From: Hyphomonas sp. L-53-1-40
Lineage (GTDB): Bacteria; Pseudomonadota; Alphaproteobacteria; Caulobacterales; Hyphomonadaceae
DNA: 64,000 nt
NCBI RefSeq assembly: GCF_000682775.1
Contig: NZ_AWFI01000001.1
Location: forward strand, 558,001-622,000
Reading direction: 5' to 3'
The notes beneath the pieces are model-generated. The model was not told the DNA's origin. It saw only the letters and a list, made by a program, of their open reading frames with translations, and did no database searches. The position numbers and the translations under genes were made by a program. Positions 28,621 to 42,164 of this stretch are shown here, one piece after another (the stretch's first letter is position 1; each line of letters begins with the position of its first letter).

Positions 28621-29772
28621 CTACGCTCCGACCACTTCAGGAAGAGCTTTGCAGAACCGTTCTACATCTTCGATCTTTCCCATCGAAACTCGCGTCCATT
28701 CATTGTAGTCCATATACTGTCCGCGAACGGATATGAGTTTTGCCGCCATGGCTTTTTGAATATCGTTCGCTTCCTTGCCAGACTTGAAGTAAACGAAATT
28801 GGTTTGGGACGGTAGCCGCTCAAGACCGAGCGTATCGATGGTCATGTTCACCATCTCACGAGCTTCGACAATTTTCTGTTTCGAATAGGCTATGAACGCC
28901 TCATCCTGGTAGGCACCTATAGCGGCAGCATAAGAAGTGCAGGGAGACCATGACATCACGACACCTCTGATTTTCTCCGCCGTTTCTGCGGATGAAATTG
29001 AATATCCCATGCGCAAGCCAGCCATGCCAAAAATCTTCGAGAAGGTGCGTGTCACAATGACATCGTGGCCCTCATCAATCAGCCCGATACAGGTATTGCC
29101 TTCGGGATCGTCGGCGAGCTCCATATAGGCTTCGTCGACCAGAACCGTCGTTTTTGCAGCCATGCGCTTCACGGCCGATTTCAGCGTTGCCGCGTCTGAC
29201 ACCATACCCGTAGGATTGTTGGGATTACACAGCTGGACGATGCCTGTTTCTGATGTGACTTTCGCCTCGATCGCCGCGAGGTCCACGCTCATATCGGCTG
29301 CAAGTGGCACCCGATCGATGCTTCCGACGCCTTGGTTGACGGCATACAGAGCAGTCGTATCCCAGAAAAGACGGGGGGCGACAATTGGGCCCGTCTTGCC
29401 GTAGATCATCGCGATAGCGCTGAGCACCTCGCCGGATCCGGTGGTCAGAACGACTTGCTCAGGTGTAACACCATTCTTGTCCGCGATGAGCTGTGCAAGC
29501 ATCTGAATGGCCTCAGGCGAGGTGTAGTACGCGCCCTTGTTGGCTGCGTACTCTACCATCTTCAATGCGGCCTTGGAGGGGCCGTATGGGTTCTCGTTGC
29601 GGGAGAGCAGTGCCACTCCTTCCTTGGGCCCCAGCAGATACGGGTCCGGCGTTGCAGTCGCGGGAAAGGCGCCTTGTGTTTCGGCTGCTGTGGTTGCGCA
29701 ACCGGCAAGGCTCGCCGTGGCGAGTCCGCCCGCCATCAAGAACCGTCTCGATACGTCAAATGCCATTTTCAT
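28621..29772 (-). CDS. Tat-exported PLP-dependent aminotransferase (HisC-like)
   Basis: Fold-type I aminotransferase of 383 residues related to histidinol-phosphate aminotransferase. The N-terminus carries a twin-arginine motif (VSRRFLMAGG) followed by a hydrophobic stretch and a lipobox-like LAGC at about residues 22-25, so the enzyme is predicted to be exported folded and perhaps lipid-anchored. PLP-binding features are intact: NPNNPTG near residue 185, DEAYMEL near 215 and the Schiff-base lysine in RTFSKIFGMAGLRMGY near 245. Periplasmic location is unusual for an aminotransferase, as PLP and a keto acid acceptor must be available there. Last gene of the - strand run downstream of the ANTAR gene. 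Substrate unknown. Confidence 0.85.
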   Translation of the reverse strand: MKMAFDVSRRFLMAGGLATASLAGCATTAAETQGAFPATATPDPYLLGPKEGVALLSRNENPYGPSKAALKMVEYAANKGAYYTSPEAIQMLAQLIADKNGVTPEQVVLTTGSGEVLSAIAMIYGKTGPIVAPRLFWDTTALYAVNQGVGSIDRVPLAADMSVDLAAIEAKVTSETGIVQLCNPNNPTGMVSDAATLKSAVKRMAAKTTVLVDEAYMELADDPEGNTCIGLIDEGHDVIVTRTFSKIFGMAGLRMGYSISSAETAEKIRGVVMSWSPCTSYAAAIGAYQDEAFIAYSKQKIVEAREMVNMTIDTLGLERLPSQTNFVYFKSGKEANDIQKAMAAKLISVRGQYMDYNEWTRVSMGKIEDVERFCKALPEVVGA

Positions 29773-29826: not shown

Positions 29827-30663
29827 TCAGGTGAACGAATTCCATAGAACGATTGCGGATGTTGCAACCAAGTATACTCCGAACACTCGCTTCAAGGCGG
29901 GCCCGTTCAATGCGTGGGCAGCCCGCGCGCCGAGTGGCGCGGTAATGAACGACATTGCCGTGATGGCAACGACAGCTAGAATATTCACATATCCAAAAGA
30001 GCCAACGGGTAGCTGGCTGGCGCCTAACCCCAGAAGCGCAAATCCGATTGCGCCGGGGACTGCGATGATCACGCCAAACCCGGAGGCTGTCCCGACAGCC
30101 TGGTGTATGGGGCGGCCACACATGGTCATGGTAAGTATGGCAATCGTTCCGCCACCTATGCCTAACAGAGCCGAGAAACCTCCAAGAAAGGAAGCAAGCC
30201 CGGCTAAAGCTACCCCTTTGGGCATTTCGTTAGACAGTTTTACATCCTTCAGAACGGGCATGATGAAGTGCAGGCCCATCAGAAAAACACCAATCGAGAA
30301 AACCCACTTCAAAGATCTGCCATCCATGAATTGGGCCAGAATGATGCCACCGATGACGCCGACGAGCAGCCAGGGTGCCCAGTCCTTTATTATTTGAAGG
30401 TCGACAGCACCCCGTTTGTTGTGGGCGTGAACCGATCGGGATGAGGTAACAATAATGGTGGCCAGCGATGTGCCGATGGCCACATGTGTCAGCACTTCGC
30501 CATCTACGCCGAAGAAGCTGAAAACCAGAAGCAAAGCAGGTACCACGACGAACCCGCCGCCAATTCCAAATAATCCTGCGACAAAGCCGGCGATCAAACC
30601 GGCGATCATCAAAACACTGATTAACTGTGCCAATTGCAATGGATCGTATTCAAGTCCCAGCAT
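29827..30663 (-). CDS. TauE/SafE family anion transporter
   Basis: Inner membrane protein of 278 residues with about eight hydrophobic helices and the two family repeats, visible as GLIAGFVAGLFGIGGGFVVVPALL (about residues 20-43) and LASFLGGFSALLGIGGGTIAILTM (about 160-183). Members export sulfite, sulfoacetate or other organosulfur anions, or move other small anions. It lies 54 bp upstream of the aminotransferase gene and follows the TonB receptor after a strong terminator-like hairpin. It could remove sulfite made by the TauD-type dioxygenase at 27576; that is inference. Confidence 0.88.
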   Translation of the reverse strand: MLGLEYDPLQLAQLISVLMIAGLIAGFVAGLFGIGGGFVVVPALLLVFSFFGVDGEVLTHVAIGTSLATIIVTSSRSVHAHNKRGAVDLQIIKDWAPWLLVGVIGGIILAQFMDGRSLKWVFSIGVFLMGLHFIMPVLKDVKLSNEMPKGVALAGLASFLGGFSALLGIGGGTIAILTMTMCGRPIHQAVGTASGFGVIIAVPGAIGFALLGLGASQLPVGSFGYVNILAVVAITAMSFITAPLGARAAHALNGPALKRVFGVYLVATSAIVLWNSFT

Positions 30664-30775: not shown

Positions 30776-33397
30776 TCAGAATGTCGCTGATGCCTTGACG
30801 TAGTAGTAGCCACCTTGCCAGTCGACGACGGAGTCAGATCGATAGATCCGTCCACAGCAGGTTTCGCCAATCGCCGCATCGCCTGCATCTGGATAGTTGT
30901 CGAATGCGTTTCTGACACCAGCGGAGAGGGTGAGAGCATCGTCGACTTCATAGGATGCTTCGAAATCAAACAGGATTTCTCCGTCCCATTCCTGGATATC
31001 GGCGAGGGTGGATGAGGCCGCATTTTCATATCCACCATAATAGTTGGCGCGACCAAGGAGACTGATCGGACCAGCCTGGTGGAGTACGGTGAACACGCCC
31101 CGCCAGTTGGGTGTGCCATTCAGGAAGTCGAATTGGCTCTCGTCATTGAAGAGTGCGTCCACGTCGCTGTCAAATTCAGTCTTGTTATAGTTGACCGATC
31201 CAGTGAAGCTTGTGTTTTGGCCATTCGCCCATGGCATGGTGTATGTTGCCACGATGTCGACGCCAGATGTGGTCGTGTCGAAAGCATTGGTGAAATAGAA
31301 CACGCCGCCAATCGACTCAGCACCGGTGACACCGGCAGCGACGAGCGCGAGATAGTTGTCATAGGCTGTCCCTGAAGCCGGATCGCTTGAAACGTCCTGA
31401 GTGGAGATTGCATTGACCCGATCAGCCAAGTCGATCTGGTAGAAGTCGACTGTCAAACTCATATTCTCGAAGTTCGAGGTCATGCCGAGTGTGTAGTTTG
31501 TGGATGTCTCAGGTTCGAGAGGTGTCGCTCCCAGTGCCTGCGCTACTGGTCCACTGGCCGGGAAAAGACCAGTCGCTACCGGGAAGCCATTGGGCAGTCG
31601 GGTAGAGACGTTAGTGGTACCCTGCTGTCCCGGCGTCGGCGCGCGGAAACCGGTGCCGATCGAACTGCGAAGCGCCAGGATGTCATTGATCTCGTAGCGG
31701 CCAGCAATTTTCCAGACGGTTTCAGCATCAAAGTCTGAATAGCTTTCGTAGCGCAGAGCGCCTTGCAAGAAGAGTTTCTCAGTGACATCCGCACTCAGAT
31801 CCGCATAGACCGAATGAGAGTCCCGCGTATAGTCTTCTGAAAAGGCGGGTGAATAACCAGGAAAGCCATTCGATCCTACACCGACGACCTGGTATACGGG
31901 ATCATCCGGATCGGAGCAGTCGAGCGTGGATCCTGCAGCCATGACCGCCACACCGGCCGCAGTCGGAGCCATGGAATCGCAGAAGCCGAACGGGTCTGCA
32001 CCGGCAAACGGACCATCTTCATAAGACGCCTTGTCACCTTCCACCAGTTCATAGGCTTCGTCCAGATAGCTAAGGCCCACTGCGAATAGGAGCGGGCTCG
32101 CAAGCCCGACTTCGAATTCTTTTGAGAAGTCAGCCTGAAGTTGTGCCTCTTCGTTGATCAGGTCGCCAGGACGGAACACGGTCGGCGTGTCGGGGCCCAT
32201 GGACGGGTTGATTGTATTTGCCAGCGTGTACTCGATCTCGTTATGTCCGTAGCGCGCGCTAAGGTCATAGTCGAACCCGGCAATGAGGCCTCGCAAGCCA
32301 CCAACGAAGGAATAGTCAGTTACATCACCGAAGAATCGCGGGGTGAAACCACCCGGGAAAATCTCCAGCGGCGAATAAATTGATCCATCTTCAAGTCGCA
32401 AGTCTTCAATCGTGCCGTTACCGGGATAGCGATAGAAGAAGCCGCCATCTGATTTGCTGCTGGAATAGTTGCCGAAGGAATAGAGTTCGGCTGTGTCGTT
32501 GATCGTGTAGGCGGAGTTGTAAAATAGCCGAACGGCTTCGCTGTTGGGTTGGCCCCAGGGTTGAACGGCGCCGAAGTCACCAAGTGACGCAGACGGGACG
32601 CCTTCGATGAACTCGGGCGTGAGGCTGGCCGCGTAACCGGCTGTGGGATCGAAGTCCGGATTGCTCGGGTCGAGACAGAACCAGGACTCACAATACTGTT
32701 CGCTTCGACTGGTCGCGTCCGCCTTGCTGACTTCACCGGAAACGCTGAGGAAACCTTTCCCACCCAGATCGAAGCCGTAATTGCCCGATACCGTGTATTG
32801 GAAGCCATCACCTTCATAATACTGGCCGACATCGACGCTGACCGAACCACCTTCCGAATTGTCTTTGAGCAGGAAGTTGATGACTCCAGCAATAGCATCC
32901 GACCCGTATTGCGCCGCGGCGCCATCCCGGAGGACTTCGATGCTTTTGAGGGCAGAAGCCGGAATGGTGGCCACGTCCGGGCCTTGCGTTCCAGATCCAC
33001 CAATGGTCACGAGTGCGGCGCGATGGCGCCGTTTCGAGTTCACCAGCACAAGCGTCTTGTCTGTTGGCAAGCCACGCATTTCAGCGGGGCGGACAAAAGA
33101 ACTACCATCAGAAATTGGCTGGCGAGTAAGGGAATAGGATGGAATGAGTGTTTTCAGAACATCATTCGTGTCCGTGAACGGCACCGCGCTGAGTTCATCT
33201 TCACTTAGAACATCAATTGGGACAGGCGAGTCCTGGATGGAGCGAGGTTTTCCGCGAGACCCCGTTACCGTGACCGCTTCCTGAACCGAGACATCATCTG
33301 TCTCTCCCTCTTGGGCTTGCGCCGCTGTGATCATGGAAAGGCTGACTGTGGCGAAGGCACACGACAGTAGTTGTGTTCGCAGTTTGGATACTTTCAT
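30776..33397 (-). CDS. TonB-dependent receptor behind an ANTAR-type leader
   Basis: Outer membrane receptor of 873 residues with a signal peptide ending AAQAQ at about residue 29, a TonB-box-like region EAVTVTGSR, a plug domain with RGLPTDKTLVLVNSKRRHRAAL and LKSIEVLRDGAAAQYGSDAIAGVINFLLK (about 110-175), and a barrel that ends YYVKASATF. This plug style belongs to the large receptors for complex organic substrates rather than classic siderophores. It is the first gene after the ANTAR regulator, separated by 357 bp holding two AAAGGC hexaloop hairpins, so its synthesis is likely controlled by antitermination or RNA refolding. The ligand is unknown. Confidence 0.93.
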   Translation of the reverse strand: MKVSKLRTQLLSCAFATVSLSMITAAQAQEGETDDVSVQEAVTVTGSRGKPRSIQDSPVPIDVLSEDELSAVPFTDTNDVLKTLIPSYSLTRQPISDGSSFVRPAEMRGLPTDKTLVLVNSKRRHRAALVTIGGSGTQGPDVATIPASALKSIEVLRDGAAAQYGSDAIAGVINFLLKDNSEGGSVSVDVGQYYEGDGFQYTVSGNYGFDLGGKGFLSVSGEVSKADATSRSEQYCESWFCLDPSNPDFDPTAGYAASLTPEFIEGVPSASLGDFGAVQPWGQPNSEAVRLFYNSAYTINDTAELYSFGNYSSSKSDGGFFYRYPGNGTIEDLRLEDGSIYSPLEIFPGGFTPRFFGDVTDYSFVGGLRGLIAGFDYDLSARYGHNEIEYTLANTINPSMGPDTPTVFRPGDLINEEAQLQADFSKEFEVGLASPLLFAVGLSYLDEAYELVEGDKASYEDGPFAGADPFGFCDSMAPTAAGVAVMAAGSTLDCSDPDDPVYQVVGVGSNGFPGYSPAFSEDYTRDSHSVYADLSADVTEKLFLQGALRYESYSDFDAETVWKIAGRYEINDILALRSSIGTGFRAPTPGQQGTTNVSTRLPNGFPVATGLFPASGPVAQALGATPLEPETSTNYTLGMTSNFENMSLTVDFYQIDLADRVNAISTQDVSSDPASGTAYDNYLALVAAGVTGAESIGGVFYFTNAFDTTTSGVDIVATYTMPWANGQNTSFTGSVNYNKTEFDSDVDALFNDESQFDFLNGTPNWRGVFTVLHQAGPISLLGRANYYGGYENAASSTLADIQEWDGEILFDFEASYEVDDALTLSAGVRNAFDNYPDAGDAAIGETCCGRIYRSDSVVDWQGGYYYVKASATF

Positions 33398-33513
33398 AAT
33401 GTATTGACCCCTCTATTCGCCGCACGACGAATATGATTTGACCGCCTAAGGACGGACTGGAAATCGAACACCAAGGCACAGCAAAAGCGCTGGTGATCGA
33501 GTCGGTTTTGAGA

Positions 33514-33529
33514 GGCCCGCCTTTGGGCC
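33514..33529 (-). ncRNA. ANTAR target hairpin 2 (hexaloop AAAGGC)
   Basis: On the - strand the RNA reads GGCCC-AAAGGC-GGGCC, a perfect 5-bp stem with a six-base loop having A at loop position 1 and G at position 4, the recognised requirement for ANTAR-domain binding. It overlaps an alternative GCCTT/AAGGC stem that would hide the loop. Confidence 0.65.
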
Positions 33530-33577
33530 AAGGCAGCTATCTGCTGCAGAAGACACCCCCTTGTGCCTTCAGAACTG

Positions 33578-33595
33578 AAGCCCGCCTTTGGGCTT
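33578..33595 (-). ncRNA. ANTAR target hairpin 1 (hexaloop AAAGGC)
   Basis: On the - strand the RNA reads AAGCCC-AAAGGC-GGGCTT, a perfect 6-bp stem with the same hexaloop as hairpin 2. The two hairpins are 48 bases apart, a longer linker than I would expect in described ANTAR targets. Identical loops on different stems argue for a common binding protein, and the ANTAR gene lies immediately upstream. Confidence 0.65.
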
Positions 33596-33754
33596 GAAGA
33601 GAAGCTTTTCAGGTCATAAAAAAGCTGGGTAGCGGAACGTATTCTGCGATGATGAATGAACACAGTTTGCCAGATTTTCACGCACCCTCGCTCAGCTTAG
33701 GTGAAACTTCGAGCAGTGAGGCTGGTTCACGTCAGCCAGGCTGGCATCGTCATA

Positions 33755-34360
33755 TCAAGGCAGCAGGTCCGACAGTGAGATCACGGCATCGCAGACGCTT
33801 TTCAGAGATTTTCCTTGGCGCATGGCCGTGGACCGGAGTGACTGATAGGCCTCCTGCTCGCTCATGCCGCGGGTTTGCATCAGAAGGCCTTTTGCGCGTT
33901 CCACAGTCTTGCGCGCAGCCAGGTTGTCTTTTGATTTCTGCAATTCACCCTGTAGCGTCGATACGAGTTTGTGCCGTTCCAGCGCGATTGTGATCAGGGG
34001 ATTTATTCGTGAGGCATTGAGCCCGTCTACCACGAACGACGTCACGCCACCCCGAATAGCCTGCGGCGCAAGGTTTTCCTCGTCACGCTCGACGAACCAG
34101 AGGATTGGAAGCTGAGTTGATGCAGCCAGACGCTCGCTGATCGATATCTGCTCGGGGCGTGCCGACTCTGACGAAAGAATTAGCAGGTCGGGCCTGATTC
34201 CCTCAAGTTCGGCCGATATGCCCGCGAACGAGAATTCATCAACCAATCTTATCGTGAGGCTTTCTGGCAAACCCTCCAGTATATTTGCGACGTCGTCCTG
34301 TGCGTTGGCGACAACAAGCACAGACAGTGCTGATAAATCGGCTCGGTCCGGCATGTTCAA
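33755..34360 (-). CDS. ANTAR domain RNA-binding antiterminator (NasT/AmiR-like)
   Basis: Regulator of 201 residues with an N-terminal receiver-like domain (about 10-130), a coiled coil (about 130-150) and a C-terminal ANTAR domain (about 150-197: KTVERAKGLLMQTRGMSEQEAYQSLR...KSLKSVCDAVI). ANTAR proteins bind paired hexaloop hairpins in leader RNA and stop premature termination. The receiver appears unable to take phosphate: the usual Asp is replaced by Ser (LLILSSES, about 59-66) and the acidic pocket by Ala-Asn. Control is therefore probably by a partner protein or ligand, as in AmiR-AmiC and NasT-NasS. The start is TTG at 34360 with AGGAGGGAG upstream; an ATG two codons on is the alternative. 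The target is probably the leader just downstream. Confidence 0.9.
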   Translation of the reverse strand: MNMPDRADLSALSVLVVANAQDDVANILEGLPESLTIRLVDEFSFAGISAELEGIRPDLLILSSESARPEQISISERLAASTQLPILWFVERDEENLAPQAIRGGVTSFVVDGLNASRINPLITIALERHKLVSTLQGELQKSKDNLAARKTVERAKGLLMQTRGMSEQEAYQSLRSTAMRQGKSLKSVCDAVISLSDLLP

Positions 34361-34674: not shown

Positions 34675-35688
34675 TCAGACAAGCCGTTTTCGAAAGCGGG
34701 CGGAGATGAGGTCGAGCGCCATTACGGTCAAAAAGATAACCAGCAACATAGTCCCGACCCGATCATACTGGAACATGTCGAACCGGCCTTTCAATTCCTG
34801 TCCGATGCCCCCTGCACCTACAAGGCCGATCACCGTGGCCATGCGTATATTTCGGTCGAGAATGTAAAGGGAGAGGCCTGTATAACTCGGCAGAACTTGG
34901 GGGAGGACGGCGATCCTGAGGATAGCAAAATCGCTGGCTCCGGTGGCCTTCAGCGCTTGTTGAGGACTCTTGTTTGCCGCTTCAATATCTTCGGCGTAGA
35001 ATTTTCCCAGAAAGCCTATGCTGTGAAATGACAGAGCCAGTATACCCGCGATCGGGCCGAACCCAAAAGCAAGCACGAGGAACAGTGCGCTGATCAGTTC
35101 GGGAATTGAGCGAAGCAGGGACACGAGTGATCGCGCCACGCCGTAGATGAGGGGATGTGGTGAGTAATTACTGGAGCATAGCCACGCCAGCGGCAGGCTT
35201 ACCAGTATGGCAATCAGACTGGCCCAGATCGCAATTTCGATTGTCTCCACCATCTTGCCGAGCACGAAGAGAAGATACCCGATCGGTTCGACGAGAAACT
35301 GCCGCTCGGACACTTTCGTGGTCATTTGCAATGTGTCCGGATCAAGCTCGGTTGTTTCAATTTCTACCGTCTCAATGTGCGCCAAGAAGGGCAATCTAGA
35401 TTCATCCAGTCTATCCATCAGGTCTGTGGGGCGACGGTCTGAGATGGCTATAGGGAACATGTCGCGAGTCACACTCTCCATTCCCCTGCTGATTTGTGAA
35501 CTTTCGCGCAGACCGATCGTCTCAAGCGCAAAATCGCCGATCTGACTGACCATCCGATCCAATTGCATACGCTCTGCGGAGATGCTGGCGGCACTGATGA
35601 TGAGGAACAATACAAGTAGTGATTTCCACCCGAAAGGCTGTTTCAGATGCCAGGTGTGAGGTTGAGAGTCGTGCGCAGTATCCATCAT
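34675..35688 (-). CDS. phnE: Phosphonate-type ABC transporter permease
   Basis: Membrane subunit of a PhnCDE-type importer, about 337 residues. After a first helix at about 20-37, a periplasmic segment of roughly 100 residues precedes the permease core with five further helices and the EAA-type coupling loop (EDIEAANKSPQQALKATGASDFAILRIAVLPQVLP, about 220-254). This large first loop is common in PhnE proteins. The open frame extends to 35877, but the real start is ATG at 35688 or 35685, one base after the ATPase stop; the upstream part lies in the ATPase gene. Third gene of phnD-phnC-phnE. The ligand could be a phosphonate, phosphite or phosphate ester. Confidence 0.9.
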   Translation of the reverse strand: MMDTAHDSQPHTWHLKQPFGWKSLLVLFLIISAASISAERMQLDRMVSQIGDFALETIGLRESSQISRGMESVTRDMFPIAISDRRPTDLMDRLDESRLPFLAHIETVEIETTELDPDTLQMTTKVSERQFLVEPIGYLLFVLGKMVETIEIAIWASLIAILVSLPLAWLCSSNYSPHPLIYGVARSLVSLLRSIPELISALFLVLAFGFGPIAGILALSFHSIGFLGKFYAEDIEAANKSPQQALKATGASDFAILRIAVLPQVLPSYTGLSLYILDRNIRMATVIGLVGAGGIGQELKGRFDMFQYDRVGTMLLVIFLTVMALDLISARFRKRLV

Positions 35689-35689
35689 G

Positions 35690-36508
35690 TCACGCGACCT
35701 CCCTCCGCAGAGCGGATGAAGTTTCGTCGAATTCAAAAATTGCCCGAATCGCATCGTGGGTGAGAGCAGCTGGCGGGCCATCGAATACGATAGTGCCATT
35801 GTTGAGACCGATAATTCGGTCCGCATATTCGCGAGCAAGATCGATTTGATGGAGCGAGCAGAGCACGGCTGCATCACGTTCCTGAGCCGCGCTCTTCAGC
35901 AGGTCCATTACATCCGCAGACGATCTGGGATCAAGGCTGGCGACGGGCTCATCGGCGAGAATGAGACTCGGATCGCACATCAATGCGCGCGCAATGCCCA
36001 CGCGTTGTTTCTGGCCGCCAGACAGTTGGCCAGTACGCCGATTGGCATGGTCTTCCGACAAGCCGACACGCGAAAGCAGAGCGCAGGCTTTTTGTTGAAT
36101 CAAGTGGGGGTAAAATTGAAACGCGATACGCCACCAGGAAAGTGCCGTAAGGCTGCCCGACATCACGTTTTGCGCTGTCGTCAATCTGTCGGTCAGGCCA
36201 AAGTCCTGATGCACCATCCCGACACGACGTCGTTGCTTTTTTGTGAGGCGCACTCCGTGAAGCCGAATGTCACCGGAGTCTACAGACGTTAGCTCAACAA
36301 TGACCCTCAGCAAAGTAGATTTTCCCGATCCGGATGATCCAAGTAGAACGCAGAAGCAACCAGGCCTCAGGTCCAACGAAAAATCATCGAGAATTCTCGG
36401 ACCGTCTTTGTACGATTTGAACACATTGGAGATTTCCAGCGTCGGGACGGTGGAGGCGGAAGTGGGTTTGTCTGTCATATTGAAAATTGTGCCGTGGTGA
36501 AAAGACAT
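35690..36508 (-). CDS. phnC: Phosphonate-type ABC transporter ATP-binding protein
   Basis: ATPase subunit of 272 residues with Walker [10 protein letters not shown] at about residues 57-65, Q-loop VHQDFGL near 98, ABC signature [15 protein letters not shown] near 160, Walker [10 protein letters not shown] near 180 and a switch histidine (CSLHQ) near 216. The start ATG at 36508 shares a base with the phnD stop (TGATG); an internal ATG at 36478 is a possible alternative since the first ten residues are not part of the fold. Typical of PhnC in length and order of motifs. Confidence 0.9.
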
Positions 36509-37440
36509 CAGCCGCGTTGGGCTGCGTCGGCCTTGCGCAGGATCGCGGCCATATAGTCATCATCCAGAAATGATGTCGCGGAGATCACGCTATCAAACAA
36601 AGCTTCACCGGCTTCGGTATTATAGCGATCCACACGCTTGCCGCCGTATCCCCGAATGGCGGCCGGACCAATGCCTTCAGCCTCATGTACATTTGCCATG
36701 GCGCGCTTGAGCTTTGCTTTGATGTCCGCTGGCAATGCAGTGTTCATCGCTATGGGGGGATTCGGAATTGGTTGCGATTTGGCGAGCACCCGAAATGCGC
36801 GTGGATCCAGACTGCCTTGGTTCACCGCGCGCTCGAAAGACACAAAAGACGCGCCTGCGGCATCTACCAACCCGTTCTTCAATGCCAACAGGCTGTTGGT
36901 GTGGCTTCCCGTGATCCGCAAGGCTGATAGATCCTTTAGCGGATCGAGCCCTTCGTCTCTCAACATAACAAGCGGATACGCAAAGCTGCTGGCGGAGTGA
37001 CTTGACCCCAGTGCGAGCGACCCTCCCGAAAGGTCAAATACAGAACTTGCGTCAGAATCTGCCGCGATGAACAGGCCAGCATAGTAAGTGGATGCACCAT
37101 TACGTTCTTCGACGGCCAGCAACTGAGCGCACCCGCGGTCTCGCGCTTCTATATAGGAGGCCGGGCCATACCAAACGACATCTGTCAGGCCAGCGCACAT
37201 GGCTTCTATTACGGAGGCATAGCTTTGCCCGGTACTGACGGTAAAGTGCAGGTCACTGGACCGCGTAATGGCATCAAACAGTGGTTGAAAATCGGCTTTT
37301 GTGCCGTCTTCCGTACCGCCATCTGCGGGGATAAGCATGACGCGGAGCGGCTTTTGCGGGCTGCCGACCTCCTGAGTGTGTGCTGTGAAAGCGAACATGG
37401 CGGTTAGCAGGAGAAACACTATGATCGACAGAATGCGCAT
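36508..37440 (-). CDS. phnD: Phosphate/phosphite/phosphonate ABC transporter substrate-binding protein
   Basis: Periplasmic binding protein of about 310 residues (PhnD/SsuA/transferrin-like type II fold). The ATG at 37440 is chosen because it starts a good signal peptide (MRILSIIVFLLLTAMFAFTAHTQ); the frame extends further upstream to 37545 without a sensible N-terminus. Family features: PLRVMLIPADGG at the mature start, the SYASVIEAMCAGLTDVVWYGPASYIEA ligand loop and the LALGSSHSASSFAYPLVML motif. First gene of the transporter operon, divergent from the RpiR regulator, with a candidate operator at 37561-37577. Confidence 0.9.
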   Translation of the reverse strand: MRILSIIVFLLLTAMFAFTAHTQEVGSPQKPLRVMLIPADGGTEDGTKADFQPLFDAITRSSDLHFTVSTGQSYASVIEAMCAGLTDVVWYGPASYIEARDRGCAQLLAVEERNGASTYYAGLFIAADSDASSVFDLSGGSLALGSSHSASSFAYPLVMLRDEGLDPLKDLSALRITGSHTNSLLALKNGLVDAAGASFVSFERAVNQGSLDPRAFRVLAKSQPIPNPPIAMNTALPADIKAKLKRAMANVHEAEGIGPAAIRGYGGKRVDRYNTEAGEALFDSVISATSFLDDDYMAAILRKADAAQRG

Positions 37441-37560
37441 ATCCGAGTTCCCAATATCACCTCGCTGCGTCTGAGCTTGGTGCGCCGCAGCATCGATAGT
37501 GAGAGACGTAGCATTGGCTTGTGACATTGGTGTTACGCAATTCATATATCCTTGATAATA

Positions 37561-37577
37561 ATTGAGTAGAATTCAAT
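37561..37577. promoter_or_regulatory. Candidate RpiR operator 1 (ATTGA-N7-TCAAT palindrome)
   Basis: ATTGAGTAGAATTCAAT lies between divergent phnD and the RpiR regulator gene. A second 17-bp copy, ATTGAGTAATTCTCAAT, lies between the HAD phosphatase and the TonB receptor at 39312-39328. Arms, spacing and the first three centre bases are identical. AT-rich inverted repeats of this type fit a dimeric regulator; the neighbouring RpiR protein is the best candidate. Confidence 0.6.
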
Positions 37578-37607
37578 TCTAAGAGTATGAAATCCAGAGG
37601 GGCGTGT

Positions 37608-38510
37608 ATGTCTGAGAGCAAAGCAAAGCGGAAAGTGGCGCCGAAACGACGGTCTGATGTTGCGATCGTAGACAATGTCATGACGCGCATCCGGGTGCGC
37701 CATCCCTCGCTTGGGCCGAGTACGCGTTCGATTGCGGACTTCGTTCTTGCCAATCCCCGACAAGTGGTGGGGATGTCGGTTACTGAGCTGGCTGAGGCAA
37801 CCGGTGCCAGTGATGGAAGTGTCATCAATTTTTGCCGCCAGTTGGACCTTTCCGGTTTCCAGCAACTGAAGCTCAGCCTCGCCCAAGAGGTGGTGCAGCC
37901 GGTTCAATTCATTCATGAGGATCTCCAGCCGACCGATGATACGCCGACTGTGTGTCGCAAGACCTTCCATGCAGGGGTTCAGGCGCTGAAGGACACGCTC
38001 TCGATTTTGGACGCCGACGCCGTATCTGCGGCGGTGGATATTATTCGGGCAGCCAAGCGGGTTGAAATCTACGGAGTAGGCTCGTCCGCGCCTATTGCGG
38101 AGGATGCACAATATCGGATGCTACGAATAGGTCTTGATGCGCGGGTCGTCGTGGACAGTCATGTTCAGGCCATCAGCGCGTCGCAAACGGGTCCCGATGT
38201 AGCGGTGCTGACCATTTCGCACTCTGGTGCAACGCATGAGACACTTGCTGCAACCAGGTTGGCCAAGGATGCGGGCGCGAAGACAATCATCGTGACCAAT
38301 TTTTCGAGTTCGCCGTTGCAGGCCTACGCGGATGTGAAACTCTTCACCATGGCTCGGGAAACCAAGTTCCGGACCGAGGCTATGACTAGCCGGATCGCCC
38401 AGCTATGTGTGCTGGATGCACTGATTGCAGCACTCGCGCTGGCCGATTATGACCGAGCGACCGAAACGCTCCGCAAAACCTTCGATGTGTTGTCGCTAAA
38501 GCGTTTCTAG
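37608..38510 (+). CDS. MurR/RpiR family transcriptional regulator
   Basis: Regulator of about 300 residues with an N-terminal RpiR-type helix-turn-helix (about 20-95, including TRSIADFVLANPRQVVGMSVTELAEATGASDGSVINFCRQL) and a C-terminal SIS sugar-phosphate-binding domain (about 125-260, with EIYGVGSSAPIAEDAQYRM and TISHSGATHETLAATRLAK). Such proteins sense phosphosugars. The ATG at 37608 is preferred over 37587 because AGAGGGG lies 5 bp before it. It is divergent from phnDCE and overlaps the HAD gene tail to tail by 4 bp. It probably represses both flanking units through the shared palindromes, which implies the imported nutrient yields a sugar phosphate or similar ester. Confidence 0.9.
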   Translation: MSESKAKRKVAPKRRSDVAIVDNVMTRIRVRHPSLGPSTRSIADFVLANPRQVVGMSVTELAEATGASDGSVINFCRQLDLSGFQQLKLSLAQEVVQPVQFIHEDLQPTDDTPTVCRKTFHAGVQALKDTLSILDADAVSAAVDIIRAAKRVEIYGVGSSAPIAEDAQYRMLRIGLDARVVVDSHVQAISASQTGPDVAVLTISHSGATHETLAATRLAKDAGAKTIIVTNFSSSPLQAYADVKLFTMARETKFRTEAMTSRIAQLCVLDALIAALALADYDRATETLRKTFDVLSLKRF

Positions 38511-39283
38511 CCTGTTGCGTCTTTTAGCAGTATCTCAAACACATCTGGTGACTTTGCTGAGGTCAAGATCGCCTTGATTCCCAGTGCGTTTGCGCCAGCG
38601 AGGTCCGTCGCTGGGTTGTCGCCCAGCATCACAACCTGATCCGCTGGCAGGTCAAGCGCCTGGCATCCCATCTGGAACAGATGTGGGGAGGGCTTTCCCA
38701 CGACGTCGATTTTCGTTTCTTCCAGTTCCACACACGCTCTGATGGCTGCCAACAGGGCGCCCGTTTCGGGTTTGATTCCACCGTCTTTCCCAGGATGGGT
38801 CTGGTCGGGGTTGGCCACGATAAGGTGGGCGCCGTTGTGCAGGGAGTTTACCGCGCGTTCCAGACGGCGATAGGTGAACCGTACATCGCGGAGCAGTACG
38901 ACCACGTCTGCGGCTTCCTGAGTCAGGTCGATCCCCATCTTCTTGGCGGTTCCGCGCATGTGCGGATCACCGAGCACCATGACCTTTGCGCCAGCAAAGC
39001 CGGTTGCGCGTCTGAGCGCTTCCATTCCAGCGAGAACCACTTGGTTGCGGTCCAGCTGAATTTCGTTGCAGGCCAGTATGTGCAAGAAGTCGTCCGGTGT
39101 GCATGTGGAGTTGTTCGAGACAATCGCGGTGCGTGTTTGATTGGCGCGCAGAAAATCTGCAGCCTCGGGCACCAGAGTGTTGCCGAGTGCGCAGCAGCCA
39201 TCCCAGTCTACGAGAAACCCTTTGGCCGACCGGCCCATGTTGGCTATTTCTTCAGATCGCGGCGTAGCGAACGCGTAAGGCAT
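38507..39283 (-). CDS. HAD-IIA family hydrolase (phosphatase)
   Basis: Phosphatase of 258 residues in the NagD/4-nitrophenylphosphatase-like subfamily: motif I FLVDWDGCCALG (nucleophile Asp at about 24), motif II IVSNNST at about 55, and motifs III-IV KPSPHLFQMG and MLGDNPATDLAGANALG near the end, with the type IIA cap between. The canonical DxDGT is altered to DWDGC, so the residue after the general acid is Cys instead of Thr. The start at 39283 has GGAG six bases upstream; a second ATG at 39238 is closer to the fold. Candidate substrates are glycerol or sugar phosphates brought in by the phn-like importer. Confidence 0.88.
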   Translation of the reverse strand: MPYAFATPRSEEIANMGRSAKGFLVDWDGCCALGNTLVPEAADFLRANQTRTAIVSNNSTCTPDDFLHILACNEIQLDRNQVVLAGMEALRRATGFAGAKVMVLGDPHMRGTAKKMGIDLTQEAADVVVLLRDVRFTYRRLERAVNSLHNGAHLIVANPDQTHPGKDGGIKPETGALLAAIRACVELEETKIDVVGKPSPHLFQMGCQALDLPADQVVMLGDNPATDLAGANALGIKAILTSAKSPDVFEILLKDATG

Positions 39284-39311
39284 ATTCCACTCCGTTGAAG
39301 GACAATCTATT

Positions 39312-39328
39312 ATTGAGTAATTCTCAAT
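39312..39328. promoter_or_regulatory. Candidate RpiR operator 2 (ATTGA-N7-TCAAT palindrome)
   Basis: ATTGAGTAATTCTCAAT, with extended symmetry ATTGAG-N5-CTCAAT, sits 29 bp before the HAD start on one side and 166 bp before the TonB receptor on the other. It matches the palindrome in the phnD-rpiR gap and would let one regulator control both strands. Confidence 0.6.
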
Positions 39329-39494
39329 TACAAATTGGGATCGAAGTAAATATCATTCACGCAATGTTTTTCAAATCTTCATCTAAGTGTCGCGTTCGAC
39401 CTCTAGAGCAGCCTCGTGGCAAGCGGCGTCAATCGCGCTCGGCCACAGCCCGCTGATGGTTGGCGGGTGTTGGGGTTAGATGGAGAGACCAGCG

Positions 39495-42164
39495 ATGAGA
39501 CTTGATAAGAACAGAAGTTTGAAATTCGGTTTGAGCGTCCTGATGGCAAGTGCGGCGATCCCGGCTGCTTTGGCTCAGCAGGGAGCCAGCACGGAAGATT
39601 CCCGCCGCCTTGAAACCATTCGTGTCGAAGGCCAGACTGTCGATGCGTCCGCATCCGACATCGCCGTGGACTTCGCTGAATACGGCACGCAAGTGCAGTT
39701 GATCAGTTCGGAAGAAATTGAAACGGGCGGGTTCACGAACTTTGGCGAATTGGCCTCTGGCCTGATCCGCGGTGCGAATATTGGCTATTCGCCGGACGAA
39801 GGCGAGTTCACCATCCGCATTGATGGCGGTACTGATCGCGATACCTTGTTGCTGGTCGATGGCGTCCCATTCTTCGATCGCTCATCTCCGTTGGAAGACT
39901 TATGGCCCGCGACAGCCATTGATCCCCGCATGATTGACGGCGTCGAAGTTTATCGTGGTGGCAACAGTCTCTATTTTGGATCCAATGGTGGCCTGGGTGT
40001 CGTGAGCGTGAAAACGAAGCGCCCCGACGGCACGCAGAAGGGCGAATTCGGTGTCTATGCCGGTTCGTTCAAAACCCGCGAGTATTATGGCAACATGTCG
40101 TTCCCACTGGACAAGGCAGGTAAACACTCCGTGCTGGTCTATGGCCGCTCCTACGAGACGGATGCGCACGAACTCTTCGACGAGGAAGCCTATGGCGACA
40201 ATGTGCTTGCGCTCGGCGGACGTCACGAATTCCCATACAGCTTCAATAGTCTGGGCATCAAATATTTGTGGGATATTGCACCTGAGACAGAGCTTCTGCT
40301 CGGTGCTTCGTACACGACGATCGATTTCAGAGACTCCTTCCCGCAAAGCACTATATTTCAGCCGAACTTCACAGAGTTCCCGATTTACACCGGAGAATTC
40401 AAGCATCGCTTCAATGACAAGCTCAAGCTGAATATCGAGGCGCACTATCAGGACCCTCAGCTCAAGAATAACGAGATTGATGCCCGTATCTGCCAGATCC
40501 CCCGTCTTTCTGATCTACCGGATGATATTCAGACCATTGCGGCCGGTCAGGGTATTTCGAGCTTCTCTACGGCAACTGAATTTGAGAGCTTTGCAGCGGG
40601 TATTCCCGGTCTGGCTGCAGGTTGTGTCACGAATCCGGTCGGGAGCGCCGGCGGCGCATCTGATGATCGTTTGAATGGCGGTAGCAATTTCTATATCAAT
40701 CAGGATCCAGACAGCCCGTACTTCGGCCAGCCTTACGGAACGCACCAGAATCCATTCCCAATCGGTGCACCCATTGGATATGTCGTGCAATCTACCGCCA
40801 GCTTCGGCGATGGTGGTCTGACGAAAGGCTTCGGGACGACTGATCAGAGGGAGTCTGGTTATGTCGATTACGGTCTGAATGCACGGGCCACTTTTACGGT
40901 CAATGAGTATATCGAACTCGTCGCAGGTCTCCAGAATACTACCTATAAAGACAATTCTGACGACTCATTCGGCGTCAAGGATGTCAAGCTCACGAGTACG
41001 GGTGTCTACGGGGACCTGAGGCTCTCCCTGCCAGTGCTGGATGGTTTCAGTGGGTCATTTGCCGCTCGTCAGGACTTCAACGACAATTTCGATGATCAGT
41101 CGATCTGGAAAGTCGGGCTTCGTCAAAACTTGGGATACGGTATCTATGCGCGGGGGTCTGGCGGCACGTCGTACAGTCTGCCGAAGATCGACGAAATCGG
41201 CGCATTCGGATCGGGCGCGAACATCAACCCTGGTCTGGAACCACAGGAAGTCAGCGCGTTTAACGTCGGGGCCGGTATCGATGGTGACATTTTTGGCGGA
41301 ACCTACAATGTCGAGATCGGGTACTTTGAAACAGAAATCGAAAATCTTTTCTCCAGCAGGGCTATTGGTGCGGTTTGTTATGAATATGCCAATGATGTTG
41401 CAAACCCATTGTTCAACAATCTGAACAATGACACCGCAGCGATTGAACAGAACCGTCGGAACATCATTCCGCCGAGCGAGTTCTGCGCCACGGCTGCAGC
41501 CGGCCTGAATGATCCTGGCGAAACAGTTGCGGTGAACGCGCTGCGTCAGCAGGATATTGAAGGCTTTACGATTGACGTCGCCTTCGACTTTGATCAGTGG
41601 CAGGCAGACTTCAGCTATACTGATATGGAGTCGCTGGAGCCGAACCCAGTCTTTGGAACGATGGCGCGCCTGGATGGCTCCACTACCGACCTTGGCTTTG
41701 TCGTGCCGGGGAAGGCTGGAAGCGCGGAGTATCGCCAATCTTCAGAACGTCCGGAGTGGACGCTGTCCGGCCTCATCACCTACACGCCAACAGACCGCTG
41801 GACATTTGCACTGAACCCGCGCCTGCAAGGGCCGGAATGGGCATATGCGGGCACCAGCCTGGCGCGCATGGTGGATGAGAACGGAAACCGAGTCGTCGAA
41901 GATCTGAACTTCGGTGACTATTTCGTCCTCAATGGATCTGTTCAGTATTTCCTTGGCGAGGAGAAACAGCACCGTTTCCTCATTCGCGGCGTGAACTTGC
42001 TGGATGAAGAATATTACGAGCGAGCTTCCGGTGGCTCGGGCTATAGCCGGGACCGTGCCGTGGTGCGCGGAGAAGTGGGCCCGAACGACAGTGCATACTA
42101 CCGCCAGTATGGGTGGAACGGCAAACCGCGTTCGTTCTGGATCCAGTACGAGTACTCGTTCTAG
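39495..42164 (+). CDS. TonB-dependent receptor of the organophosphorus region
   Basis: Outer membrane receptor of about 889 residues. The ATG at 39495 has GGAGAG 7 bp upstream and gives a signal peptide (RLDKNRSLKFGLSVLMASAAIPAALAQ); an ATG at 39480 is the alternative. A plug domain with LLLVDGVPFFDRSS and IDGVEVYRGGNSLYFGSNGGLGVVSVKTKRP (about 120-175) is followed by a barrel ending FWIQYEYSF. It is divergent from the HAD phosphatase and 126 bp upstream of phoD. Its neighbours suggest a phosphate-ester ligand. The unusually long extracellular loops around residues 330-440 contain four Cys residues that may form disulfides. Confidence 0.92.
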   Translation: MRLDKNRSLKFGLSVLMASAAIPAALAQQGASTEDSRRLETIRVEGQTVDASASDIAVDFAEYGTQVQLISSEEIETGGFTNFGELASGLIRGANIGYSPDEGEFTIRIDGGTDRDTLLLVDGVPFFDRSSPLEDLWPATAIDPRMIDGVEVYRGGNSLYFGSNGGLGVVSVKTKRPDGTQKGEFGVYAGSFKTREYYGNMSFPLDKAGKHSVLVYGRSYETDAHELFDEEAYGDNVLALGGRHEFPYSFNSLGIKYLWDIAPETELLLGASYTTIDFRDSFPQSTIFQPNFTEFPIYTGEFKHRFNDKLKLNIEAHYQDPQLKNNEIDARICQIPRLSDLPDDIQTIAAGQGISSFSTATEFESFAAGIPGLAAGCVTNPVGSAGGASDDRLNGGSNFYINQDPDSPYFGQPYGTHQNPFPIGAPIGYVVQSTASFGDGGLTKGFGTTDQRESGYVDYGLNARATFTVNEYIELVAGLQNTTYKDNSDDSFGVKDVKLTSTGVYGDLRLSLPVLDGFSGSFAARQDFNDNFDDQSIWKVGLRQNLGYGIYARGSGGTSYSLPKIDEIGAFGSGANINPGLEPQEVSAFNVGAGIDGDIFGGTYNVEIGYFETEIENLFSSRAIGAVCYEYANDVANPLFNNLNNDTAAIEQNRRNIIPPSEFCATAAAGLNDPGETVAVNALRQQDIEGFTIDVAFDFDQWQADFSYTDMESLEPNPVFGTMARLDGSTTDLGFVVPGKAGSAEYRQSSERPEWTLSGLITYTPTDRWTFALNPRLQGPEWAYAGTSLARMVDENGNRVVEDLNFGDYFVLNGSVQYFLGEEKQHRFLIRGVNLLDEEYYERASGGSGYSRDRAVVRGEVGPNDSAYYRQYGWNGKPRSFWIQYEYSF

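Follow-up and report, generated by a model that had tools for sequence, protein, structure and literature searches.

In Hyphomonas sp. L-53-1-40 the only ANTAR gene that we found in the genome lies directly upstream of an operon for a TonB receptor, a TSUP permease and an aminotransferase, and we are confident in the prediction that it encodes a dedicated regulator of this operon which acts through hexaloop hairpins in the leader between them. The window referred to below is the whole stretch of 64,000 nucleotides that was analysed. As described in a sequence-only reading that preceded this work, regulator gene, leader and receptor gene lie on the same strand, and domain matches agree with the assignment of both proteins. 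The locus comprises the following features:

33755..34360, minus strand: ANTAR regulator gene, 201 aa from a TTG start codon, with an alternative ATG at 34354 (PF03861)
33398..33754, minus strand: leader of 357 nt, from the ANTAR stop codon to the receptor ATG
33578..33595, minus strand: P1, hexaloop hairpin AAGCCC-AAAGGC-GGGCTT, 6-bp stem
33549..33570, minus strand: P2, hexaloop hairpin GAAGGCAC-AAGGGG-GTGTCTTC, 8-bp stem
33533..33547, minus strand: small bridging hairpin GCAGC-AGATA-GCTGC, from P2 to P3
33514..33529, minus strand: P3, hexaloop hairpin GGCCC-AAAGGC-GGGCC, 5-bp stem
33460..33496, minus strand: downstream hairpin H4, then UUU, −15.7 kcal/mol, at best a weak terminator candidate
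30776..33397, minus strand: TonB-dependent receptor, first gene past the leader (PF07715 and PF00593)
29827..30663, minus strand: TauE/SafE-family (TSUP) permease, same operon (PF01925, E 2.4e-42; synteny conserved)
28621..29772, minus strand: HisC-like PLP aminotransferase whose N-terminus is of twin-arginine type, same operon (PF00155; HisC-type NCBIfam matches below cut-off)

The ANTAR protein combines a degenerate receiver-like N-terminus, in which Pfam detects no Response_reg domain, with a C-terminal ANTAR domain scoring well above threshold (E=2.1e-18, 66.3 bits, cut-off 27.3). Its best matches in the PDB are Rv1626, EutV, NasR and AmiR. The phospho-acceptor aspartate is replaced by serine, and most relatives likewise carry a residue other than Asp at this position. 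In an alignment with EutV, the RNA-contacting residues R142, K143, E146, K149, E160, Y164, R168 and M172 (residue list from PMC8934654) are kept, among the conserved positions being those that contact G4, and K147 is represented by Arg. The 173-177 loop of EutV is not retained: N173, R175 and R177, which EutV requires for RNA binding (PMC8934654), are R, G and S in the window protein, with basic residues close by. No gene for a kinase, NasS or AmiC stands beside the ANTAR gene in the window; its upstream neighbours are PhnCDE genes, and downstream follow the receptor, TSUP and aminotransferase genes.

Three hexaloops with A at position 1 and G at position 4 are found in the leader (AAAGGC in P1, AAGGGG in P2 and AAAGGC in P3), where dinucleotide shuffles lead one to expect about 0.1 such hairpins. 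The sequence-only reading had recognised the two AAAGGC loops on their 6- and 5-bp stems, and both are there (33595-33578 and 33529-33514); what it took for a plain 48-base linker between two hairpins actually holds P2 (33570-33549) and the bridging hairpin (33547-33533). Folding of the leader, suggested at that time as a check, places P1, P2, P3 and the bridging hairpin in the minimum-energy as well as the centroid structure. P1 and P2 are separated by 7 nt (CAGTTCT), which lies within the 5-12 nt range of the Enterococcus faecalis eut leader, where linkers of 3 or 14 nt drastically reduce induction (PMC3369931) and a 20-nt linker extension abolished antitermination in vitro (PMC8934654). The spacing between P2 and P3 is 19 nt, outside that range, and is spanned by the bridging hairpin. 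In Rfam neither the window nor the loci of eight relatives gave a match at the gathering score, only sub-threshold ones.

The arrangement is widely conserved in the Hyphomonadaceae. We searched 100 relatives for the ANTAR protein; for the receptor the search covered these and the entire family. The receptor occurs in 45 of 105 family genomes and is directly preceded by the ANTAR gene in 37 of these 45, with leaders of about 310-435 nt; within the genus, receptor and ANTAR match are found in exactly the same 20 genomes, and the gene is directly upstream in all of them. Among the named carriers are a Hyphomonas sp. and Hirschia maritima. Most of the loci that were examined over a longer stretch have the order ANTAR, leader, receptor, TauE, aminotransferase, with genes farther upstream varying. 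In the two closest relatives P1 reads AAGTCC-AAAGAG-GGACTT, i.e. a paired change from C-G to T-A with A1 and G4 retained, and the bridging hairpin is present; another subclade has a 3-bp counterpart of the latter with one two-sided change. The P2 loop is AAAGGC in relatives, and a second genus group (L005, L068-L071) also has three consecutive hexaloops. The shared feature is not the identical hexaloop that the sequence-only reading had emphasised: the exact loop is not conserved across relatives, and positions 1 and 4 alone persist. Two further observations concern these leaders. A block resembling GTTGC[GA]GTGCA[CT]CA, a candidate promoter or operator, lies 5' of the hexaloops in L009-L013, L021-L031, L065-L067 and L073 and is not evident in the window; and in L021, L022, L024, L027, L030, L031, L052 and L053 some 75 nt past P3 (CACCTCAGGATATCAGTGCCTTGGGCGTTCGGC...GGGGGCAG) are almost invariant and include a second copy of GGCTCAATGG, with no Rfam match for this segment in the leaders tested.

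We counted hairpins of at least 5 bp closed by a hexaloop, classed them by loop positions 1 and 4, and took the expectation from dinucleotide shuffles. The 37 leaders with an adjacent ANTAR gene hold 60 AxxGxx hairpins compared with 3.8 expected (16-fold), so that the loops, on whose conservation in relatives the sequence-only reading had staked its claim, are indeed kept; each of the other fifteen classes is represented 1-10 times. Under this strict rule 22 of the 37 leaders have at least two A1/G4 hexaloop hairpins and two have no hexaloop hairpin, while in L029, L009 and L011 one loop departs from consensus at position 1 or 4. The related leaders are not independent of each other, yet the sequences of the different subclades have diverged so far that mere common descent does not account for this loop class. 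In 53 leaders of receptor genes that have no ANTAR gene beside them, most from Gammaproteobacteria and some from the family, 11 AxxGxx hairpins were observed and 7.1 expected, and the leaders without ANTAR that belong to the family or the order (L058-L060, L072, L076-L081) show zero or one isolated hairpin and no pair. The same receptor without ANTAR occurs in Alteromonas, Microbulbifer, Croceicoccus and others (L085-L129), in many cases close to genes for a TauE permease and a Tat-type aminotransferase; in Alteromonas a gene that by eye is LysR-like lies divergently upstream of the receptor (L112, 4574-5578).

Two covariance models were built without the window. R2 represents P1-P2 of ten leaders outside the window group, an alignment in which G4 is invariant in both loops and A1 is found in nine of ten rows for each. 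Compensatory changes in relatives, which had been proposed as a further check, were found in the stems of the dual hexaloop: two-sided changes affect 6 of 10 pairs (15 cells against a shuffled mean of 6.1) and the covariation score is 0.444 (0.192 when shuffled, at most 0.079 in slid controls), figures which, like the pairing percentages, lean towards structure since the rows were registered by hairpin. The two best R2 matches in the 64-kb window are P1-P2 (15.6 bits, E 0.11) and P3 (E 0.5), both weak and not outstanding at the scale of the whole genome, where every additional match falls inside coding genes. Across 58 loci (E ≤ 2) the model gave 24 matches, all in loci with the receptor-adjacent ANTAR gene and none in NasT or ANTAR-less loci; run on the family it returned its own training loci only, and across 240 genomes of the class, under strict filters and with no positive control, it returned nothing. 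R1 represents the P2-P3 segment of another subclade and was made from the L021 group alone, because joint MAFFT alignment with the window group displaced the P2 loops by one column. Its best match in the whole genome of our strain is the P2-P3 segment of the window (33571-33513, 23.7 bits), followed by one of 13.8 bits, and no further target came close to the first. Both models recover the window hairpins, and therefore the canonical pair (P1-P2) and the bridged pair (P2-P3) are both common to other lineages.

NCBIfam assigned the receptor to no specific family at its cut-off, and the aminotransferase starts with SRRFLMAGGLA, a twin-arginine type as read from the sequence, and is thus apparently exported via Tat. 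A nitrogen role is suggested by this aminotransferase and by the general theme of ANTAR systems, and by these two alone, the described targets being for the most part genes of nitrogen metabolism (PMC3369931). On the other side of the ANTAR gene (34675-42164) genes for PhnE, PhnC, PhnD, an RpiR-type regulator, a HAD-IIA phosphatase and a second TonB receptor are clustered, which looks like a TonB-coupled uptake system for phosphonate or organophosphate.

Among the known systems, EutV/eut of E. faecalis shares with the window the A1/G4 hexaloops, a P1-P2 linker of 5-12 nt and the G4-contacting residues of the ANTAR domain. It differs in that the window leader has a third hexaloop and a linker bridged by a hairpin, an intrinsic terminator overlapping the hexaloops was sought there and not found, the receiver lacks the phospho-acceptor Asp and has no linked kinase, and the target is a TonB receptor operon. 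NasT-NasS, which occurs in the same family (L043-L051), resembles the window in the receiver-like N-terminal domain of its ANTAR protein and in a target near the regulator gene; however, Pfam detects the receiver in the NasT of the family and not in the window protein, the window has no sensor of NasS type next to the ANTAR gene and a target other than a nitrate gene, so that the locus does not belong to this class. A tree of 49 ANTAR sequences places the 11 that are not linked to the receptor together on one branch (97/95), separate from those that are, among which Hirschia L018 is counted. In L044 the neighbours of ANTAR include, by profile check, a sensor of NMT1_2 type and a molybdopterin oxidoreductase, as in NasT-NasS; the other receptor-unlinked loci were judged by eye. 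The Hirschia maritima region L046 contains a NasT-NasS locus and, about 8 kb away, the receptor-linked ANTAR locus, with RND-efflux-like genes between them. AmiR has a degenerate receiver and controls the adjacent operon through its leader. The window protein resembles AmiR of Pseudomonas aeruginosa in both respects and matches it in sequence, but no AmiC-like sensor gene stands beside it and the target genes differ.

Predicted RNA recognition by the ANTAR protein is very likely because of locus conservation, co-occurrence, loop specificity, model matches and conserved contact residues, and the interpretation of the leader as an ANTAR target ahead of the TonB receptor is strongly supported by the conservation, the co-occurrence, the loop specificity and the RNA-contact residues. 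Leader binding would be the best-supported step of a mechanism in which active ANTAR protein binds the A1/G4 hexaloops of P1, P2 and P3 in the nascent RNA and alters leader folding or elongation, such that the downstream genes are expressed. The effect would probably be activation rather than repression and be exerted at transcription elongation, and the degenerate receiver may sense its signal without phosphorylation. That the hairpins arose by chance or serve another purpose (a DNA operator or a REP-like repeat) while the ANTAR protein acts elsewhere is very improbable: shuffles do yield single hairpins of such size and a 14-nt segment is identical in P1 and P3, as in a repeat, but the 16-fold enrichment is confined to the A1/G4 class and to ANTAR-linked leaders across diverged sequences, and the two covariance models gave no comparable second intergenic site in the genome.

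Given binding of the leader as the main reading, its consequence could take two forms. Characterised hexaloop ANTAR systems act by antitermination (PMC3369931, PMC8934654), and here binding could stabilise P1/P2 or P3 and thereby block formation of an intrinsic terminator. The eut-like P1-P2 linker fits this possibility, and so does H4, a hairpin that lies 3' of P3, ends in UUU (tail TTTCC/TTTACC), reaches −20.1 kcal/mol in L003 compared with −15.7 in the window, and might be a weak terminator in the window group. However, the terminator scan of the window leader was negative, H4 included, which bears out the lack of a U-tract terminator seen in the sequence-only reading; H4 overlaps no hexaloop hairpin, and by eye the window group shows no conserved alternative pairing exclusive with P3. 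Nor do the 37 leaders have a common terminator of consistent type or place, a looser search giving hairpins whose U tails are short and whose positions vary. We do not class the leader as an antitermination element, because neither the window nor, with any consistency, its relatives yielded an intrinsic terminator that overlaps the second hairpin, and canonical antitermination is a genuine possibility on which we would not rely. The absence of a consistent U-tract terminator would instead fit ANTAR action by blocking Rho-dependent termination or by changing mRNA stability or receptor translation, to which we give nearly an even chance. A 2012 survey found overlapping terminators in only ∼30% of matches in ANTAR-bearing genomes (PMC3369931), and in the window group a conserved hairpin adjoins the Shine-Dalgarno region of the receptor; the last hexaloop, though, ends about 116 nt 5' of the receptor start codon, which argues against direct translational control. 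Of the earlier proposal that RNA antitermination controls outer-membrane uptake here, the ANTAR target leader is upheld by conservation and contact residues; antitermination, with no terminator found, can still only be inferred.

Hexaloop recognition by ANTAR proteins is already known. New, as far as the literature searched shows, are the TonB receptor operon as a target, the third hexaloop with a linker bridged by a hairpin, the missing intrinsic terminator that would overlap a hexaloop, and a lineage of receptor-linked ANTAR proteins with no partner gene next to their own; no paper linking ANTAR to TonB receptor control was found, the supplementary tables of PMC3369931, which may list TonB, being outside the scope of this search. 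The TonB target, the third hexaloop, the missing terminator and the missing NasS-type partner therefore characterise a variant of the known ANTAR system. The variant mechanism that the sequence-only reading had suspected stays plausible as regards the terminator; its argument from the linker overlooked P2, the nearest pair of hexaloops being a canonical 7 nt apart. It is a tentative and rather doubtful extension that ANTAR control of outer-membrane nutrient uptake operates family-wide in this form, i.e. with two to three hexaloops, no intrinsic terminator, a distinct lineage and a non-phosphorylated, partnerless receiver.

Descriptions of TonB receptor control usually concern transcription initiation (Fur, or pairs of sigma and anti-sigma factors), riboswitches or small RNAs. 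The conserved hexaloop leader and the adjacent ANTAR gene point to control of outer-membrane uptake at the RNA level. The locus would be a clear test case for ANTAR action without an intrinsic terminator, its 37 natural variants of one protein-RNA pair, many of them strongly diverged, lend themselves to studies of recognition, and the receptor module without ANTAR in Alteromonas and Microbulbifer makes regulation comparable between the two forms. With an ANTAR-RNA pair that is conserved in the family and coupled to TonB, the ANTAR regulon would reach the outer membrane.
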